Shown one piece after another: positions 2,330 through 21,101 of a stretch of DNA of 23,563 nt. The notes below the pieces were generated by a model. That model worked only from the letters and a program-made list of their open reading frames with translations, was not told where the DNA came from and made no database searches. Origin of the DNA: a virus; the IMG/VR virus record IMGVR_UViG_3300044825_002266, positions 1-23,563 of that record, one strand, 5' to 3'. The stretch's first letter is position 1; each line of letters starts with the position of its first letter. A program made the position numbers and the translations under genes.

Positions 2330-3514
2330 ATGGCTCAATCTAAACCATATCTTTTACCTAACACTGCGGGAAGATATGTTACAGAAACTCTTACAAATAC
2401 CTCCGGTTCCATTTTTAGAGTAGATGGATCAAAAACAGTCTATGCAGATTATTTTATTGAAAATGGAAACCTTATTTTAGAGACATCAGCATTTGCATCG
2501 CCAGAATTTCAAAGAAATCTAGCGCAAAATTCTCAAGGATATAATAGAACAATAAGTAACTCCATTCTTGAGGCAACTGGAACCGCCCCTAGCGGAAACA
2601 CTGCACAAAATAATCCGAATGATTCGGGATCTCCCGATTCATCCCAACCAACAACGTCTCCGCCAAATAACAAACAACCAGTAACTGCACCACCGGGATT
2701 AATCTATCCAACTGACCTGGGATCTAGTGATCAAGATAAAATTAGATTTTGGGCAGCGGAATATGTTACGGGTAAAAGTAGAGGTCTTTCGGGAAGTGGT
2801 GTTCCATCTTTATCATCTGTTGTTGGGGCAAAAGTTGAAGTTCCTGTTTTTTTACCAATTCAATCGGCAATTTCAGACCAAAATGCAGTTGGGTGGGAAC
2901 CTGATACTCTAAATCCAATTGAATTGTATGCAGTAAATGCTTCATTGGACGTAATGGAGGCTGGTAGCATGGAAAACGTCACAAAAGTAAGTGCAGATAA
3001 TCTTAACACGGCTTTACAACGTTTAAGATCAAGCTCTAGAGAAGTAAGGACATATCTTGCCGGTCAAGCAGTTGGTGTAAATAATCTTCTTTCAAGGTTG
3101 CAAGGTCAAGTTCTAAACCCAAACTTAGAACTTCTCTTTCAAGGTCCGCAATTAAGACCTTTTAGTTTTACATTTAAGTTATCGGCAAGAAATGATATTG
3201 AAACAAAGACTATTAAGCAAATTATAAATTATTTTAAAAAATATATGGCTCCTAGATACAAAGATGGTGATCTGTTTATAAGAGCACCTCACATATTTGA
3301 AATAAAATATCTTTACAAGAATAAAGAAGATCACCCAGGACTAAATTTAATCAAAGCTTGTGCATTGACAAACTTTTCTGTTGATTATACTCCTCTTGGT
3401 TCATACATGACATATGAAGATGGAACAATGGTGGCATATACATTATCAATGCAATTCCAAGAACTTACTCCAATTTATGAAAACGACTACGACGGACACG
3501 ATATAGGATACTAA
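2330..3514 (+). CDS. 48: Baseplate tail tube cap gp48
   Basis: 394 residues. The N-terminal ~60 residues form a short domain (YLLPNTAGRYVTETL, VYADYFIENGNLIL), followed by a Ser/Pro/Asn/Thr-rich linker at about 85-125. The C-terminal half carries the tube-type domain: NPNLELLFQGPQLRPFSFTF, IKQIINYFKKYMAPR, and ALTNFSVDYTPLG with a final MQFQELTPIY strand. This pattern is characteristic of gp48, which with gp54 bridges the baseplate hub to the tail tube and fixes tail assembly. It is third in the gp4 operon and ends one base before the gp53 start. Length is close to T4 gp48 plus an extended linker. Confidence 0.85.
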   Translation: MAQSKPYLLPNTAGRYVTETLTNTSGSIFRVDGSKTVYADYFIENGNLILETSAFASPEFQRNLAQNSQGYNRTISNSILEATGTAPSGNTAQNNPNDSGSPDSSQPTTSPPNNKQPVTAPPGLIYPTDLGSSDQDKIRFWAAEYVTGKSRGLSGSGVPSLSSVVGAKVEVPVFLPIQSAISDQNAVGWEPDTLNPIELYAVNASLDVMEAGSMENVTKVSADNLNTALQRLRSSSREVRTYLAGQAVGVNNLLSRLQGQVLNPNLELLFQGPQLRPFSFTFKLSARNDIETKTIKQIINYFKKYMAPRYKDGDLFIRAPHIFEIKYLYKNKEDHPGLNLIKACALTNFSVDYTPLGSYMTYEDGTMVAYTLSMQFQELTPIYENDYDGHDIGY

Positions 3515-3515
3515 A

Positions 3516-4535
3516 ATGTCAAGAAACTATTTCCAGTACTTACCAAATTTTGAATACGTTAATCGCAATCCAGAAAACAGCGACATATCTAACTATATTG
3601 CGATCAAAAATCTTTTCAAAAGAGTAAAAATTAGGGAAGACATTTTTAATAACTTAAATTATTTTGAAAAATATCAAATCATTGGAGATGAAAGACCAGA
3701 TAATGTGGCATTTAAAATTTATGAAGATCAAAATCTAGACTGGGTTGTTCTTCTTGCAAATAATATTACAAATATTCAAAGCGAATGGCCATTACCCCAA
3801 AATTTATTTGATAAGGTTCTTCTAGAGAAGTATGGATCATATGAAAACTTATACTCCAATATTCATCATTATGAAACTATAGAGGTTAAAAACTCAGCAA
3901 GAGCTGTTGTATTACCAGCGGGACTAAGAATACAAAACACTTGGAGAACAAATGGCAACTTTATTCAAGTTATAAACACAAAAATAAATCAAATATTTGC
4001 TGGAAATGGTATCGTTGGGACAAAAACAGTAACAGTTACCATGAACAATGGCATTAAAGGATTAACTGAGGGGTCTCAGGTTTTAATCAATAACGTATCC
4101 GAAAATATATACAACGGGAAATTTACTGTTACTTCTGTTTTAGCTCCATTTAATGATATTGCAATCTCTTTTACATATGAACTTCCTTCAGTGCCATCAA
4201 TAATAAACCCAAATATAAGCACATCAAACAAAGAAGAAGTTGTCTTTACTCTCGAAAGTGGAATGGAGGGTGGAAATTCATATTACTATGAATTTTATGA
4301 CAGCAATCTTGAATCTTATACTTTAGTTCCATCAACGGATTTACTCAAAGCAGTTACAAATTACGAATACGAACTTTCAGTCGAAGATAAAAAAAGAAGT
4401 ATCTTTATCTTAAAACCAGATTATCTAGATCTTGTCTTTAATGATCTTAATTCGATTATGAGATACAAAGAAGGTGGTGTCCAATACATAGACACCACCT
4501 TAAAGAGAGGAGAAAATATTAGATTATATCAATAA
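3516..4535 (+). CDS. 53: Baseplate wedge protein gp53
   Basis: 339 residues. The N-terminal ~130 residues match the gp53 pattern (NYFQYLPNFEY, a conserved region through DNVAFKIYEDQNLDWVVLL, then WPLP and a YGSYENLYSNIHHYE motif), and the last part returns to DLVFNDLNSIMRYKEGGVQYI. T4 gp53 (196 residues) finishes the wedge by joining wedges around the hub. The centre (about 135-250) is an insertion of beta-rich sequence (VTVTMNNGIKGLTEGSQVLI, SFTYELPS), so the protein is much longer than T4 gp53. It ends the plus-strand operon and abuts the gp32 stop with no intervening base. A perfect hairpin is encoded in its last 25 codons. Confidence 0.88.
   Translation: MSRNYFQYLPNFEYVNRNPENSDISNYIAIKNLFKRVKIREDIFNNLNYFEKYQIIGDERPDNVAFKIYEDQNLDWVVLLANNITNIQSEWPLPQNLFDKVLLEKYGSYENLYSNIHHYETIEVKNSARAVVLPAGLRIQNTWRTNGNFIQVINTKINQIFAGNGIVGTKTVTVTMNNGIKGLTEGSQVLINNVSENIYNGKFTVTSVLAPFNDIAISFTYELPSVPSIINPNISTSNKEEVVFTLESGMEGGNSYYYEFYDSNLESYTLVPSTDLLKAVTNYEYELSVEDKKRSIFILKPDYLDLVFNDLNSIMRYKEGGVQYIDTTLKRGENIRLYQ
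4471..4501. terminator. Perfect 11-bp inverted repeat, possible bidirectional or gp32 terminator
   Basis: Arms aaggtggtgtc (4471-4481) and gacaccacctt (4491-4501) pair perfectly around a 9-base loop. It lies inside the 3' end of gp53 and, on the minus strand, about 35 bases past the gp32 stop. Neither side has a proper run of U, so termination is uncertain; it could equally protect mRNA 3' ends from exonucleases. Confidence 0.5.
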
Positions 4536-15588: not shown

Positions 15589-15777
15589 TCAAATACCAAA
15601 TCCAATTGCAAAAGCAATTGCGGTTGTGTTTGTTGCAATTACACTACCACCTGCGGTGGTTCCATCATGAACAACTAATGTTTTTTTATCGGTATCCACA
15701 GTAACTTCAGCTAAAGCTCCAGTAAAAGTTGCATGTTGTGCCGTAGTGCCTCTACGGAATTGCACCTGTTTTGTCAT
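15589..15777 (-). CDS. Stand-alone Mtd-like N-terminal domain protein
   Basis: 62 residues: MTKQVQFRRGTTAQHATFTG, ALAEVTVDTDKKTLVVHDGT, TAGGSVIATNTTAIAFAIGF and GI. The VQFRRGTTAxHxxFTG and EVTVDTDKKTLVVHDG motifs are those of the major-tropism-determinant-like N-terminal domain often found at the start of phage fibres, and they match the first ~48 residues of the 827-aa fibre at 18618-21101. Here the domain stands alone with a short hydrophobic end. It could be a trimeric collar or adaptor, a remnant of a deleted fibre, or a recombination donor. A GATAAATA late-like promoter precedes it. Confidence 0.78.
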   Translation of the reverse strand: MTKQVQFRRGTTAQHATFTGALAEVTVDTDKKTLVVHDGTTAGGSVIATNTTAIAFAIGFGI

Positions 15778-15803: not shown

Positions 15804-15811
15804 TATTTATC
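15804..15811 (-). promoter_or_regulatory. Candidate late promoter GATAAATA
   Basis: Minus-strand GATAAATA, one mismatch from the T4 octamer, about 27 bases before the start of the 62-aa domain gene. A second similar octamer lies 26 bases further upstream. Confidence 0.5.
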
Positions 15812-15829
15812 TGGTAAAGTTTTTTTGCC

Positions 15830-15837
15830 TATTTATT
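15830..15837 (-). promoter_or_regulatory. Candidate late promoter AATAAATA
   Basis: Minus-strand AATAAATA contains the TAA stop of the sulfotransferase-like gene. It is the more distal of two late-like octamers before the 62-aa gene. Confidence 0.35.
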
Positions 15838-16573
15838 TCAATAGATTATTGGGTATATTTGAAATTATTTCACTCACTGACAAAACCAGATCACCAATCT
15901 CAGGATACTGATTGCACAAATCATTTTCAATAATTCCGAAGGAAGGGTATAAAGTTTTAACTGTCCCAAAAATAGGAAGCACTGTTTCATTCACTGAAGT
16001 ATCTTTACCATTAATTCCAAGAGATTTTACATATATGTTTGATAGATCAAAATCTTTTATTTTTTCAATTTCAAAGTGATCGCAAACCAAATCCATAGTT
16101 TCTTTTTTGTTCTTCAAAAAATTATTGGATTCTATCCACATTATATCTTTGCTTTCTCTTATCCATTGAATGTTATTCAACCACATAAAAGCGATTTTTT
16201 CCAAATCAGTTTTAAATTGATCTGAGTTCAATGAAGAATGGCAGTTGTTTAAATGATGTTCATACTTTGAAGAAATAATACTCTCCATATATGATGAAGA
16301 CTTTATTTTAAACAGATGATGTTTTAATTTTCGGTACAAAAATACTTTTTTTCCAGGAATGTTGTTTACAAACGGACAATAACCACTTCCAAATTTGACT
16401 ACAATGTTATTACAGTCTTCTGTCAGTTCTAGATCTTTATTGAATAGTAAATTGTTTGCCCAAGATGGTTCTGAATAAACAATAGTAGAATTTGCTAGCA
16501 ATGTTGCCATCAATGTAGATCCACAATGAGAAGTATGGTAGATCTGATTGATATTAATATCACTGATTTTCAT
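15833..16573 (-). CDS. Sulfotransferase-like P-loop protein
   Basis: 246 residues from the ATG at 16573, MKISDININQIYHTSHCGST. The segment YHTSHCGSTLMATLL (12-26) fits the 5'-phosphosulfate-binding loop of sulfotransferases of the type H-x-S-x-C-G-S-T-L-L, and SEP at 34-36 resembles the conserved acidic site that follows. A later segment VFLYRKLKHHLFKIKSSSYM could hold the 3'-phosphate-binding Arg/Ser. Such enzymes move sulfate from PAPS to hydroxyls of glycans, proteins or small molecules. The start overlaps the 2OG oxygenase end by 14 bases, with GAGG nine bases before it. The longer upstream reading frame was rejected. Base composition looks more AT-rich than the neighbouring fibre genes, hinting at transfer. 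Substrate unknown. Confidence 0.7.
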   Translation of the reverse strand: MKISDININQIYHTSHCGSTLMATLLANSTIVYSEPSWANNLLFNKDLELTEDCNNIVVKFGSGYCPFVNNIPGKKVFLYRKLKHHLFKIKSSSYMESIISSKYEHHLNNCHSSLNSDQFKTDLEKIAFMWLNNIQWIRESKDIMWIESNNFLKNKKETMDLVCDHFEIEKIKDFDLSNIYVKSLGINGKDTSVNETVLPIFGTVKTLYPSFGIIENDLCNQYPEIGDLVLSVSEIISNIPNNLLK

Positions 16574-17222
16574 TTGCCAAATCCTCATTCTTTTTTTCAA
16601 AACTTGCACCAAAAAAATGTGATATGCAATATCTACCGTGTCCAGAATAATAATCTCCATCATCTATACTGACCAACTTAACTCCATGAGTAACATAAGA
16701 GGGTAGTAAAATTAAACTATTATTCAAACACTTAAATTCATAATCATCATACTCTGGAAAAAATAATTCGCCACCTGAAAACTTTCTTGGTTCTTTATTA
16801 AAGTAACTAAATGCTAAGAAATCATGAAATATATCTGTATGTGGTTCATAGTAGTCCCCATTATGATAGTATCTTGCTTTCGTTATACAATAATTGGTAC
16901 AAAGAATTTTTTTATGTTGAGGAAATCTATCAAAGAATATATTTAAAAATCCGTGATTGAATAATTTTTGAGTGACTGTAATAATATTGGAAAGGTTTTT
17001 ATCGTTATATGCGGTATCTAATTGTATTGATCTAGATTTAGTTAGAAATTCTCCTGTTTGATAATCAACCGCCCCATGAATATATCCAGGTTCATACAAT
17101 TTTCCAGGTCTCGTTAGGAATTTAAGTTCTTCCCAAATCAATTCCAATTCTTCATCCGTGTAAAAATTTTCTATTATTAGATGTGGAAATGGTTCGTTAA
17201 AAATATTAATCTTCCTTTCCAT
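16560..17222 (-). CDS. 2-oxoglutarate/Fe(II)-dependent oxygenase, prolyl 4-hydroxylase type
   Basis: 220 residues. The Fe(II) triad is visible: His128 and Asp130 in YEPHTDIFHDF, and His179 in LLPSYVTHGV; Arg197 in SGHGRYCISHFF would bind the 2-oxoglutarate carboxylate. FSGGELFFPEYDD between them is the typical GGEL strand. The N-terminal half (NIFNEPFPHLIIENFYTDEE) matches P4H-like enzymes that open with FPHLIIDNF. These enzymes hydroxylate proline, other residues or small molecules. Several occur in marine T4-like phages with unknown substrates. It overlaps the sulfotransferase-like gene and sits among fibre genes, so the two probably act together. Confidence 0.85.
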   Translation of the reverse strand: MERKINIFNEPFPHLIIENFYTDEELELIWEELKFLTRPGKLYEPGYIHGAVDYQTGEFLTKSRSIQLDTAYNDKNLSNIITVTQKLFNHGFLNIFFDRFPQHKKILCTNYCITKARYYHNGDYYEPHTDIFHDFLAFSYFNKEPRKFSGGELFFPEYDDYEFKCLNNSLILLPSYVTHGVKLVSIDDGDYYSGHGRYCISHFFGASFEKKNEDLANENQ

Positions 17223-17255
17223 AATATATCACATATTTAAGTAATTATAATGTTC

Positions 17256-17735
17256 TCAATATCTTCTGTCAAATTCTGGTTGCTCCATATTAAGAGTCCA
17301 TGCTCTTTGACCCTCAGATCCTTCAACTTGTCTCCAATTTGAAATAGATTCGTCCCATTCGTATTGATATGTATCCCAGGGTTTTGGAAATGGAGGTCTC
17401 CACTTCAATCTATCTGGGTCATACCACCAAAGAGGATGTGGTTGTTCTGGAATAGGTGGCAAAAATCTTTTATATTTTTCATTATAAGAATACCCAGGAG
17501 GAATAAACGCATCATACTGTTCATCATAAAAATCACCAATACCTGCATACTTATTTCTAAAGTTTGCATTATAAGATGTCTGAGCCCATTTTGTATCTAG
17601 CCCATATAGATTTTTTAGAAATTCAATTCCTTTTTGTTCAGATTCATTACCATTTTCATCTAGTATGTCATCATTAGATATAACAATGACTCGTGTTACT
17701 ACATTATTTTGATCTAATTCTGCAAAGTGTGCCAT
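17256..17735 (-). CDS. Conserved cyanophage protein in the fibre cluster
   Basis: 159 residues. MAHFAELDQNNVVTRVIVIS begins a small beta domain, followed by DENGNESEQKGIEFLKNLYG, a Tyr/Asn-rich FRNKYAGIGDFYDEQYDAFI, and a Trp/Pro-rich C-terminal half (PHPLWWYDPDRLKWRPPFPK, YQYEWDESISNWRQV). I recall close relatives in many cyanomyoviruses, usually near tail fibres, without known function. The aromatic-proline repeats suggest a surface-exposed virion component or a glycan-contacting tip. AGGA ribosome binding site upstream. Virion location is inference. Confidence 0.78.
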   Translation of the reverse strand: MAHFAELDQNNVVTRVIVISNDDILDENGNESEQKGIEFLKNLYGLDTKWAQTSYNANFRNKYAGIGDFYDEQYDAFIPPGYSYNEKYKRFLPPIPEQPHPLWWYDPDRLKWRPPFPKPWDTYQYEWDESISNWRQVEGSEGQRAWTLNMEQPEFDRRY

Positions 17736-17754
17736 ATGTTTTTTTCCTATTGAA

Positions 17755-18615
17755 TTAACTTACGGTAAAAGTTCCACCAGCAGTAAAGTCATGAATCACA
17801 TAATCAGTTCCACCGACATTTGCGGTAGTGATAGTTCCACCAGTTGCTTTTGTTACTGTACCAGGATATCTTACAATGACTCTTCCAGAACCCCCAGTGT
17901 ATGAAGTTGTAGATCCAGTTAAGGGTCTGGCACCACCACCAGTATTTGCGGGTTGAGTATTTGTAGTTGTTCCATCTCCATTATTTCCTGAGCTAGATGT
18001 CCCAACTCCTCCTCCACCAAAAGCAACAGTCGATGATGATCCTCCCCTAAATGTTGTTAAATTATATCCAGATCCACCAGCACCACCACCCGTAGTTGTT
18101 GCATTAGCACCCACTCCACCTTTTCCGCCGCCGCCACCTCCAGCGCCGGTGACGGGCGCTGTACTTTGTGATCGCCCAGATCCACCATTATTTCCTTGCC
18201 CAGAAGTTCCCAGTCCCCCGGCAGATATATTCAGATTACCTTGACCACCACCACCGGATCCACCAGATTGAGATCCTGTTTGAGGAGACGCTCCGTACCC
18301 ACCACCGACAGCATCTGAAGCGCCAGTAAATGTTGTGTTAGATCCATTTGCACTTCCAGTTCCTCCACCACCAATAGTAATAGTTCTACTCACTCCAGAA
18401 TTTAAAGTTGTAGAATAAATATACAAACCTCCACCACCACCGCCGCCGCCGATGGTGGGGGGGAAAAAATTATCATCAGTACCAAAGGATGTATTCTGCG
18501 CTCGCGCACCGCCACCACCAGCCATCATAAGAACTTCTATTGCTAGTGGAGGATTATTGGTAATATTTCTTCTTCTAGCAAATCCACCGTTAATTCTTGA
18601 TAGTATAGGAGACAT
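17755..18615 (-). CDS. Glycine-rich adhesin-like protein
   Basis: 286 residues. After a short N-terminus (MSPILSRINGGFARRR, then PPLAIEVLMMAGGGGARAQN), residues about 34-255 are dominated by Gly with Ser, Thr and Asn in runs such as GGGGGGGG and GGSGGGGQGN, ending in GGSGRVIVRYPGT and a final VIHDFTAGGTFTVS strand. Glycine-rich blocks of this type can fold as bundles of polyglycine-II helices, as in the T-even tip adhesin gp38, though the sequence is not a clear gp38 homologue. The C-terminal SGRVIVRYP motif is common in glycine-rich phage fibre proteins. It lies directly downstream of the 827-aa fibre (two-base gap) with a strong GGAGG site, so a tip or side adhesin of that fibre is likely. 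Confidence 0.72.
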   Translation of the reverse strand: MSPILSRINGGFARRRNITNNPPLAIEVLMMAGGGGARAQNTSFGTDDNFFPPTIGGGGGGGGLYIYSTTLNSGVSRTITIGGGGTGSANGSNTTFTGASDAVGGGYGASPQTGSQSGGSGGGGQGNLNISAGGLGTSGQGNNGGSGRSQSTAPVTGAGGGGGGKGGVGANATTTGGGAGGSGYNLTTFRGGSSSTVAFGGGGVGTSSSGNNGDGTTTNTQPANTGGGARPLTGSTTSYTGGSGRVIVRYPGTVTKATGGTITTANVGGTDYVIHDFTAGGTFTVS

Positions 18616-18617
18616 AA

Positions 18618-21101
18618 TTATCGATAACCTCCGTTAACAACGCCTAAGAGATAATAGTTTGCAGTTGTACTTGCAGAACCAACAGTATTAATACCGGTAA
18701 AACTATATATGTCCATTCCACTGCTAGTGGTAACACCAGAAATTGCACTTGCCAATGAACCACCAGCCCAACGAATGGTTGCGTTAAATCCGTTAAGAGT
18801 AACAGCAGTACAACTTCTTGCAGTTCCCGTTTGATTTACAAATACACTAAAAGTAATTGAGGTATCATTAAAAGAAGAGTCAACAGGAATACCAGTAACT
18901 GCTAGTGTAATATTACCAGTTGGGTTTGTACAAATTGCAATATTACCGCCGCCAGTATTGTAAACTAGACTTGCAGTATTTCCATCAATCCTCGTGGTTT
19001 CCTCACCAACTGATTGGAATCTTGTAGTTGCAGCAGTTGTGTTACCAGTAATATTTGAAGAAGATGCAGTAACGATACCAGTAACTAAAACATCACCACT
19101 AACCGCAAGTTTTGATGTCGGATTTGTGGTTCCTATGCCAACATTTTTAGAACTATCAATTCTTACTGCTTCACCACTGTTACTATAAAACTCTAACTGC
19201 CCATCAGCAGAACTATACATTCCAGAGTCATTATCACCAGGACTGAAGAAACCATATCCATTATTATTAACACCAAGACCACCTGGAGCACCACCTCTTG
19301 CTCTGAAAGAGTTGGCAGTAGTAACACCAGAAACTGTAAAATCTCCACCATAATATAATGATCCAGTACCAGTTCTACCTAAAGCAACTGTATCTGAATT
19401 ACCAAAAACAATAAATCCTCTAGTACCATCTTGAACTCCAGAAAGTCGTGTGGTATTTGATAAGTTCAGATCACCAAGCCAAGCATCATCACCAATTCTT
19501 ACATTCTGACTATTTCCATTATTTGAGGTATAAACTTGATTTGCTGTTAGTATACCAGAAACTGAAACATTATCTGTAATAGTTACGGTTACAATACCAG
19601 AAGAAATAGGAGATACTGAAAGATTTGCGCCAAAGTTAATTGTTCCTGCTGTTCCTATTGTAGTATTATCGTCTCTAACAATAACTCCAGAACCAGACCC
19701 AACTATACCTGTCAATCCAGAACCATCGCCAGTAAACTTTGCCGCAGTTACATTGCCTGCAGCATCAATGTTTAAACGTACAACTCCATTTGCAGAAGTT
19801 GCATCATCCTCTCTAAAAATTCTAAAGTTATTTGAACTATCGTTATCAATATTCCAACGATAAACAGTTCCAGGAACTCCTCTAAAAATGAGTCTACTAT
19901 TAGAAGCAGCATCTTGATTTATTACTATTTTACCAAGAACTGTTAGTCCAGTTTCTTGTGGATTTGTGGTTCCTATTCCCAAACGACCAGAAATATAAGC
20001 ACCACCACCAACTTGAAGTTTTTGTTCCGATGTTCCTGTAAAAATTGTGGTTCCTATACCAACATTAAAGTTTTCATCACCAACTAACCAATACCTACTC
20101 GCATTAGCATCGGTTCTTATTCCAACTGCAAATTGATTACTTTTAGTGGTGTCTGGAGAGTCAAAATAATTAGCACCAGACCCACTACCAATTATAACTT
20201 TATAAGATGCTGATTCTGAAATACCATTTCTGGGTCCAAGGAAAATATTATTACTTCCAGTTTGGTTACTAATTCCAGCAGCAATACCAATAAAACTATT
20301 AGAACCTCCACTGCTGTTATTGAATCCTGCATTAAGTCCAAAGAAGACATTAGAACTTCCTGTGTTGGAATATCCTGCCGAACTACCAAGGAAGACATTA
20401 GAAACTCCACTTTGGTTGGAGTATCCTGCATTAAGTCCTAAGAATACATTGCTACTTCCAGTATTATTAAATCTTCCTGCATTAGAACCAATAAAGATAT
20501 TATTAGTACCATTGGTAATAGAAGATCCAGTATTGCTATCACCAATTCTTGCGTTATTATTCGCACCAAATCCCAATACTCCACCAATTTGAAGGTTCGT
20601 TTGTGGATTTGTGGTTCCTATTCCAACATTAGATAATGTATGAATTCCTGCTGCTGTTGTGACCCACTGTGTTCCTATTCCACCTCCACCACCAGCAATA
20701 CTAATATCAATTCTATTTCCAAAAACAGCAAATGTATTTCCACTACCTACAAAGTTTAATGCCGTAATAATTCCAGTTGTTACTAAATTTCCACCAGAGT
20801 AAATACCAATCCCCTGAACACCACCAGATAATGTAGAAACACCAGAGATATTAATGTTCGTCCCCTGAACACCACCAGATAATGTAGAAACACCAGAGAC
20901 ATTGATGTTTGTTGCATTAATATCTTTATTTACAATTCTTTGAGTTGTACTTGTTCCAACTAGAGGATGCCCACCAACAGTTGCACCATCGTGAATAACA
21001 GATACGTTTTTATCAGTATCTACTGTTATTTCTCCAGATTGCCCTGTGAATACAGAGTGTTCTGCTGTAGTTCCTCTTCTAAACTGTACACCTTGTACCA
21101 T
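18618..21101 (-). CDS. Tail fibre with Mtd-like N-terminus and YadA-head-like repeats
   Basis: 827 residues. Residues 1-48 are the Mtd-like attachment domain (VQFRRGTTAEHSVFTGQ, ITVDTDKNVSVIHDG). At about 66-99 a 17-residue unit, NINVSGVSTLSGGVQGT, is tandemly duplicated. Residues about 200-295 hold five-fold repeats of the form N-[IV]-F-[ILF]-G-x-x-A-G-[YF]-S-N, resembling the left-handed beta-roll heads of trimeric autotransporters. VGIGTTNP motifs recur at about 159, 360-375 and near 655-665, marking module starts. The C-terminus (DTSITFSVFVNQTGTARSCT, ASTTANYYLLGVVNGGYR) looks like a distinct tip domain. It is probably a trimeric fibre for host recognition. An AATAAATA octamer lies upstream. 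Confidence 0.82.
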   Translation of the reverse strand: MVQGVQFRRGTTAEHSVFTGQSGEITVDTDKNVSVIHDGATVGGHPLVGTSTTQRIVNKDINATNINVSGVSTLSGGVQGTNINISGVSTLSGGVQGIGIYSGGNLVTTGIITALNFVGSGNTFAVFGNRIDISIAGGGGGIGTQWVTTAAGIHTLSNVGIGTTNPQTNLQIGGVLGFGANNNARIGDSNTGSSITNGTNNIFIGSNAGRFNNTGSSNVFLGLNAGYSNQSGVSNVFLGSSAGYSNTGSSNVFFGLNAGFNNSSGGSNSFIGIAAGISNQTGSNNIFLGPRNGISESASYKVIIGSGSGANYFDSPDTTKSNQFAVGIRTDANASRYWLVGDENFNVGIGTTIFTGTSEQKLQVGGGAYISGRLGIGTTNPQETGLTVLGKIVINQDAASNSRLIFRGVPGTVYRWNIDNDSSNNFRIFREDDATSANGVVRLNIDAAGNVTAAKFTGDGSGLTGIVGSGSGVIVRDDNTTIGTAGTINFGANLSVSPISSGIVTVTITDNVSVSGILTANQVYTSNNGNSQNVRIGDDAWLGDLNLSNTTRLSGVQDGTRGFIVFGNSDTVALGRTGTGSLYYGGDFTVSGVTTANSFRARGGAPGGLGVNNNGYGFFSPGDNDSGMYSSADGQLEFYSNSGEAVRIDSSKNVGIGTTNPTSKLAVSGDVLVTGIVTASSSNITGNTTAATTRFQSVGEETTRIDGNTASLVYNTGGGNIAICTNPTGNITLAVTGIPVDSSFNDTSITFSVFVNQTGTARSCTAVTLNGFNATIRWAGGSLASAISGVTTSSGMDIYSFTGINTVGSASTTANYYLLGVVNGGYR
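20811..20912 (-). repeat. 51-bp tandem repeat inside the fibre gene
   Basis: Copies 20811-20861 and 20862-20912 are nearly identical, both beginning cccctgaacaccaccagata on the plus strand. They encode two 17-residue units of the fibre stalk and keep the reading frame. Confidence 0.85.

Follow-up and report, generated by a model that had tools for sequence, protein, structure and literature searches.

Genes for 2OG-Fe(II) oxygenases are found in cyanophages at 1-5 per genome, with as many as 24 in S-SCSM1 (PMC3037559, PMC9602691). To account for their abundance in aquatic phages, roles in DNA repair or in 2OG/nitrogen control (2OG signalling) have been put forward as guesses (PMC2984593, PMC3037559). 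Phage sulfotransferases have been noted earlier as well, with an unclear function (PMC10580990), and the neighbourhoods of fibre genes are known variable islands, in which Fe(II)-dependent oxygenases have been reported (PMC3909814, Table 1). An earlier account of a phage 2OG oxygenase-sulfotransferase pair was not found in the papers searched, subscription journals and preprints aside. The pair described here, which we refer to as OG and ST, is real and conserved and recurs in many uncultured aquatic viruses, and sulfation is its likely chemistry.

The window, by which we mean the complete 23.6 kb (23,563 nucleotides) that was analysed, is virus DNA of a T4-like cyanophage; compared with the nearest marine cyanophages, identity amounts to 68-73% for gp32 and to about 41% for the 1067-aa virion protein. 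The features surrounding the pair are collected in Table 1. An earlier note on this DNA had reported two ORFs overlapping by 14 bases amid fibre genes, and indeed both were recovered on the minus strand with an overlap of exactly that length. The overlap follows from the start of ST at ATG 16573 (MKISDININQIYHTSHCGSTLM...), which is favoured by the alignment with relatives and has a GAGG 9 nt before it as further support. A longer ST of 276 aa, starting at the in-frame upstream ATG 16663, was rejected, as the extension is not conserved in the relatives. Overlaps of 1-17 nt are common to most close relatives of the pair, and translational coupling is likely. Within the clade of the window dN/dS amounts to 0.04-0.11 for OG and 0.14-0.22 for ST, indicative of purifying selection, and therefore neither gene is a chance ORF. 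The order in which the phrog_7759 gene directly precedes OG is conserved in the window-type loci L003-L017, and its Pro/Trp/Tyr-rich product could be a substrate candidate. A fusion of this gene with OG in L004 and L014 was dismissed as a probable sequence error, because the genes are separate in the close relatives L006 and L007.

Table 1. Features of the window around the OG-ST pair
Feature	Position	Strand	Remarks
Virion structural protein, 1067 aa	12338-15541		downstream of ST
62-aa Mtd_N/tail ORF	15589-15777		downstream of ST
ST, divergent protein with predicted sulfotransferase fold	15833-16573	-	246 aa
Overlap of OG stop and ST start, 14 bases	16560-16573	-	read from the sequence
OG, 2OG-Fe(II) oxygenase	16560-17222	-	220 aa, predicted P4H-type double-stranded beta helix
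Small Pro/Trp/Tyr-rich protein, phrog_7759	17256-17735	-	phrog_7759 at 7.4e-36; directly upstream of OG
Gly-rich protein	17755-18615		upstream of OG
Mtd_N/tail protein, 827 aa	18618-21101		upstream of OG
Giant repeat fibre, phrog_11522 relative	21137 to beyond 23563	-	ten NPPD motifs; 5' end outside the window
Exchangeable block (827-aa tail protein, Gly-rich protein, phrog_7759, OG, ST)	15811-21093	-	absent from the homologous L123

OG is a member of the 2OG-Fe(II) oxygenase superfamily (PF13640). Its score passes the PF13640 cut-off marginally (27.1 bits versus 27), phrog_61 ('2OG-Fe(II) oxygenase') is matched at 6.7e-15, and the iron ligands H128/D130/H179 and the 2OG-binding R197 (positions by alignment) are invariant in 16 relatives. 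The AlphaFold model (pLDDT 88) has the double-stranded beta-helix fold and finds 282 PDB structures at E <= 0.001, with prolyl hydroxylases and PolD on top; the prolyl hydroxylase 6t8m is the best match (E 7e-10), and P. putida P4H with EF-Tu is also among the prolyl hydroxylases matched. The modelled fold is thus of the P4H type and nearest to P4H/PHD, yet the small-molecule enzymes PolD and PasI match too. Relatives that cover at least 80% of OG were found in 125 phage records, all with less than 60% identity. ST is absent beside many OG relatives, often so in the marine cyanophages, which implies that OG can do without ST, acting by itself or together with another partner. In L018 (5954-7141, minus strand), L019 and L020 an OG relative (54% identity) is located near a Trp halogenase gene (PF04820; E 1.5e-74 in L018) and not near a sulfotransferase; the clade formed by these oxygenases and OG may serve different tailoring enzymes.

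On its own, the ST of the window matched no model in Pfam, PHROGs or NCBIfam, so that the label 'sulfotransferase-like' rests on family-level evidence. Relatives from uncultured viral contigs yielded an ST family of 32 non-redundant members, in which GST, EP, KK-x-FL-x-R and one Trp are invariant. The GST belongs to a 5'-phosphosulfate-binding-like loop, HTSHCGSTL (13-21), and further motifs of ST are EP (35-36) and FLYR (78-81). A loop of this type is common to bacterial Sulfotransfer_3-like proteins; the family profile aligns to these HTSHCGSTLL proteins with an hhalign E of 1.9e-14 (probability 98%), and two of the bacterial proteins score just below the Sulfotransfer_3 cut-off. PF00685 (Sulfotransfer_1) is matched at E <= 0.1 by 5 of the 32 members (best 6.4e-7). 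When the ST profiles were searched against PDB sequences, no match was significant, the best being to an interferon receptor; tblastn of three family members against 50,697 phage records found no homologue, and genomes scanned with alignment A1 (nine members) gave no match. The same scan with the wider alignment A5 matched single-cell contigs of Prochlorococcus as well as proteins of Bacteroidetes and alphaproteobacteria. ST relatives shortened to 164-178 aa, in which the binding loop is kept and the C-terminal part is gone, were observed in L067, L069, L072, L073 and L082.

The top 50 Foldseek matches of the ST model in the PDB are all sulfotransferase-family folds (best E 3.4e-4, TM 0.3-0.5), including the antibiotic sulfotransferases Teg12/Teg14 among the top matches, and the best viral match (BFVD) is the 'sulfotransferase' of S-SCSM1. 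The canonical 3'-phosphate site of the SULT enzymes consists of an Arg followed by a Ser eight residues on. Arg81 of the FLYR motif is invariant in the family and the +8 residue is Lys89, a near-invariant Lys, whereas a Ser occupies this site in several bacterial relatives. Structure prediction, which the earlier note had suggested as a check on the PAPS site, thus returned the expected fold and a phosphosulfate-loop-like motif, on a low-confidence model (pLDDT 70) and with Lys at +8 instead of Ser. We consider ST to resemble the PAPS sulfotransferases by its predicted fold and do not claim formal family membership. The exchange of Ser for Lys, the weak family scores and the low model confidence would also suit a P-loop protein that no longer moves sulfate, but uses another donor or acts as a binding protein. 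We regard such a loss of transfer as improbable, since the GST loop, EP and FL.R are invariant, the gene is under purifying selection and an APS-kinase-like partner is present in a divergent group of loci (see below).

A PF13640 gene is located directly upstream of ST in 27 of the 31 non-redundant ST loci, which are related sequences and hence do not represent 31 independent events. The clear exception is L049, where ST lacks a 2OG neighbour and a late-transcription coactivator gene is found directly upstream instead. The OG and ST distance matrices of 25 pairs correlate with r = 0.87, a value reached in 0 of 2000 permutations, and the same clades appear in the OG and ST trees. OG and ST are therefore a real, co-inherited unit, the link being kept in at least four distinct genomic settings. 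As a baseline for the pairing we considered S-SCSM1, of the genomes met here the richest in 2OG genes: with 24 oxygenase ORFs among 293 annotated features, oxygenases make up less than a tenth of the genes even there. The sulfotransferase of this phage has no 2OG gene beside it, which shows that an abundance of 2OG genes alone does not force adjacency. It could be argued that OG and ST are separate cargo sharing a hot spot without a common pathway, OG then acting on 2OG/nitrogen signalling or on DNA. The abundance of 2OG genes in cyanophages (PMC3037559, PMC9602691) and the many OG relatives without ST would fit such an arrangement; it is nevertheless unlikely in view of the congruent distances, the persistence of the pairing in several settings and the unpaired sulfotransferase of the 2OG-rich S-SCSM1.

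In the window-type loci the order is Gly-rich fibre, phrog_7759, OG and ST. Another T4-like clade carries the pair between the genes for gp33 (late-transcription coactivator, PF16805) and the gp59 loader, with no fibre neighbours. Tail fibres flank it in L050-L054, L061-L063 and the podovirus-like L065, L069, L072 and L075, and head-scaffold genes are nearby in L077, L083 and the relatives L070, L080 and L081; psbA-like genes are also close to the pair in L081 and L083. Most podovirus-like loci show the order OG-family oxygenase, second 2OG oxygenase, ST, APS-kinase-like gene. The latter gene follows ST in the divergent phage group, directly so in most cases, and PF01583 is matched (E <= 0.01) by 8 of the 28 genes downstream of ST. 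The protein of L065 scores 46.6 bits against the PF01583 cut-off of 21.1 and that of L064 24.4 bits, with AAA models scoring higher for the latter; APS kinases are matched in the PDB at 7e-10. Compared with CysC of E. coli the phage protein presumably lacks the lid region. For the Clavibacter and Stenotrophomonas phage relatives of this gene no sulfotransferase is annotated nearby. In L064 (6294-7011) and L068 (8675-9410) a small nucleotidyltransferase gene (PF01467) overlaps the APS-kinase-like gene, possibly providing a second sulfate-activation step.

The P4H-type and sulfotransferase folds, the joint inheritance and the APS-kinase-like gene in the divergent group make hydroxylation plus sulfation a reasonable reading, and this part of what the earlier note proposed is supported to that extent, whereas its link to the NPPD motifs is not. 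The motifs had been put forward as natural candidates for the hydroxylase, in a giant fibre said to be adjacent to the pair. Ten NPPD motifs are present, as had been counted; the fibre, however, is separated from OG by three genes and 3.9 kb. Elsewhere NPPD occurs within reach of the pair only in L063 (two) and L013 (one; the same contig as L040). The close relative L123 shows the opposite: its fibre, with seven NPPD motifs, has the neighbours known from the window, yet the OG-ST pair is missing at that place. L123 1844-3368 aligns to window positions 22608-21094 and L123 3556-9706 to 15810-9682, which leaves 187 bp (3369-3555) in place of the five genes and about 5.3 kb of the window. Because L123 keeps the NPPD fibre without this block, the cassette belongs to the exchangeable block and not to the NPPD fibre. 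Since most pair loci, in addition, have no NPPD fibre in reach, this fibre was rejected as the specific substrate. Relatives of the giant repeat fibre, of the phrog_11522 kind (L122, L124), reach up to 2061 aa; the close ones carry 7-11 NPPD motifs, the distant ones lack them.

Could another fibre or virion protein be the target? The earlier note had envisaged a phage adhesin that is hydroxylated and sulfated by the pair. Several lineages that are not related to one another have the cassette next to fibre or tail genes: tail-fibre proteins adjoin it in the window-type loci, in L050-L054 and L061-L063 and in several podovirus-like loci, and Fe(II)-dependent oxygenases are listed among the host-recognition genes of metaviromic islands (PMC3909814). 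An occurrence mostly away from fibre genes, which the earlier note had named as evidence against its proposal, is not seen overall, although fibre genes are not next to the pair in the gp33-gp59 clade and in some podovirus-like loci. Position beside fibres alone is weak evidence, because fibre regions are variable islands in general. A fibre domain shared by every pair locus was not found, and the occurrence of NPPD fibres does not follow that of the pair. We hold a phage adhesin as the substrate to be rather unlikely.

A host glycan deserves the same weight. Of 300 genomes sampled from the picocyanobacterial family (Cyanobiaceae), 3 contain full-length ST homologues, and another is present in a second Prochlorococcus single-cell contig; most of the Cyanobiaceae homologues have no 2OG neighbour. 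In the Cyanobiaceae genome G120 (L119 6784-9142), however, a TPR protein gene is followed by a PF13640 oxygenase gene and, directly after it, by the ST homologue, in a surface-sugar island with a GDP-mannose dehydratase, an epimerase and a cytidylyltransferase, which makes host glycan a serious candidate target. The pair might thus alter a surface polysaccharide or lipid of the host during infection and thereby change the receptor, e.g. to block re-adsorption or superinfection. In line with such a role, the fibre proteins that accompany the cassette differ greatly, and fibre neighbours are absent in one clade. On the other hand, the G120 arrangement is found for only one of the four host ST homologues, the host 2OG protein, which has a TPR neighbour, represents another member of the family, and the fibre-side position in many phages would be left unexplained, so that we hold an action on the host surface to be a rather unlikely one too.

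A product of low molecular weight has been considered as well. The matches of OG to PolD and PasI and of ST to Teg12/Teg14 could point to a pathway for a sulfated metabolite; the T4-like cassettes, however, come without other biosynthetic genes, and we judge this improbable.

We favour, with about even confidence, a two-enzyme hydroxylation-sulfation tailoring cassette of aquatic phages, and the pair probably decorates some target with sulfate. OG would hydroxylate this target, after which ST, as a PAPS-dependent enzyme, would sulfate the new or a neighbouring hydroxyl. An APS kinase is encoded in 54 of 61 genomes sampled from the picocyanobacterial family, and such hosts should hence be able to supply PAPS; host PAPS would then explain why the cyanophages do without a kinase of their own, while some non-T4 phages would add their APS-kinase-like gene. 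The target would most likely lie at the phage-host interface, with a fibre or virion protein and a host surface glycan as equal candidates. Against the cassette count the lack of a curated family for ST, its model pLDDT of 70, the Lys for Ser, L049, the lone ST homologues of the Cyanobiaceae, the lone OG relatives and the loci away from fibres. What the analysis shows is the two genes with their motifs and predicted folds, their joint inheritance, the purifying selection and, in related loci, the APS-kinase-like partner; the sulfotransferase activity, the order of the reactions, the target and the benefit to the phage are inferred. A conserved partner enzyme would give a phage 2OG oxygenase a concrete chemistry, from hydroxyl to sulfate, and a mass tag. 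Should a fibre or a surface glycan prove to be the target, the phages would be decorating the recognition interface with sulfate. That this pathway, in some phages with a PAPS-making step of its own, decorates an adhesin or host receptor to steer adsorption is a tentative idea, and if true it would represent a novel type of modification, of the virion or of the receptor.

OG belongs with the cyanophage 2OG-Fe(II) oxygenases in its fold, its motif and its profile match (PF13640/phrog_61; Syn9 141/176 and the S-SCSM1 set), whereas the isolates inspected carry no sulfotransferase of the ST family. ST shares the predicted fold, the phosphosulfate-binding-like loop and the FLYR arginine with the PAPS sulfotransferases (PF00685/PF13469; Teg12/14, SULT2A1, CurM), from which it differs in matching no curated model and in the Lys for Ser at the 3'-phosphate site. 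The APS-kinase-like protein has the P-loop, N(G/A)D-x-x-R and F(I/V)xP of APS kinase (CysC) and scores above the PF01583 cut-off; it is shorter, however, and its gene is confined to the divergent loci and absent from the window. The other phage sulfotransferases (S-SCSM1 gp053, those of the OM43-phage genomes and 'S-SRM01') are likewise phage-borne and of unclear role; gp053 differs in having neither a significant tblastn match to ST nor a 2OG neighbour. A conserved neighbour pairing is also seen in the pelagiphages, where the 2OG oxygenase is joined by another partner enzyme, a ferrochelatase (PMC9599517).
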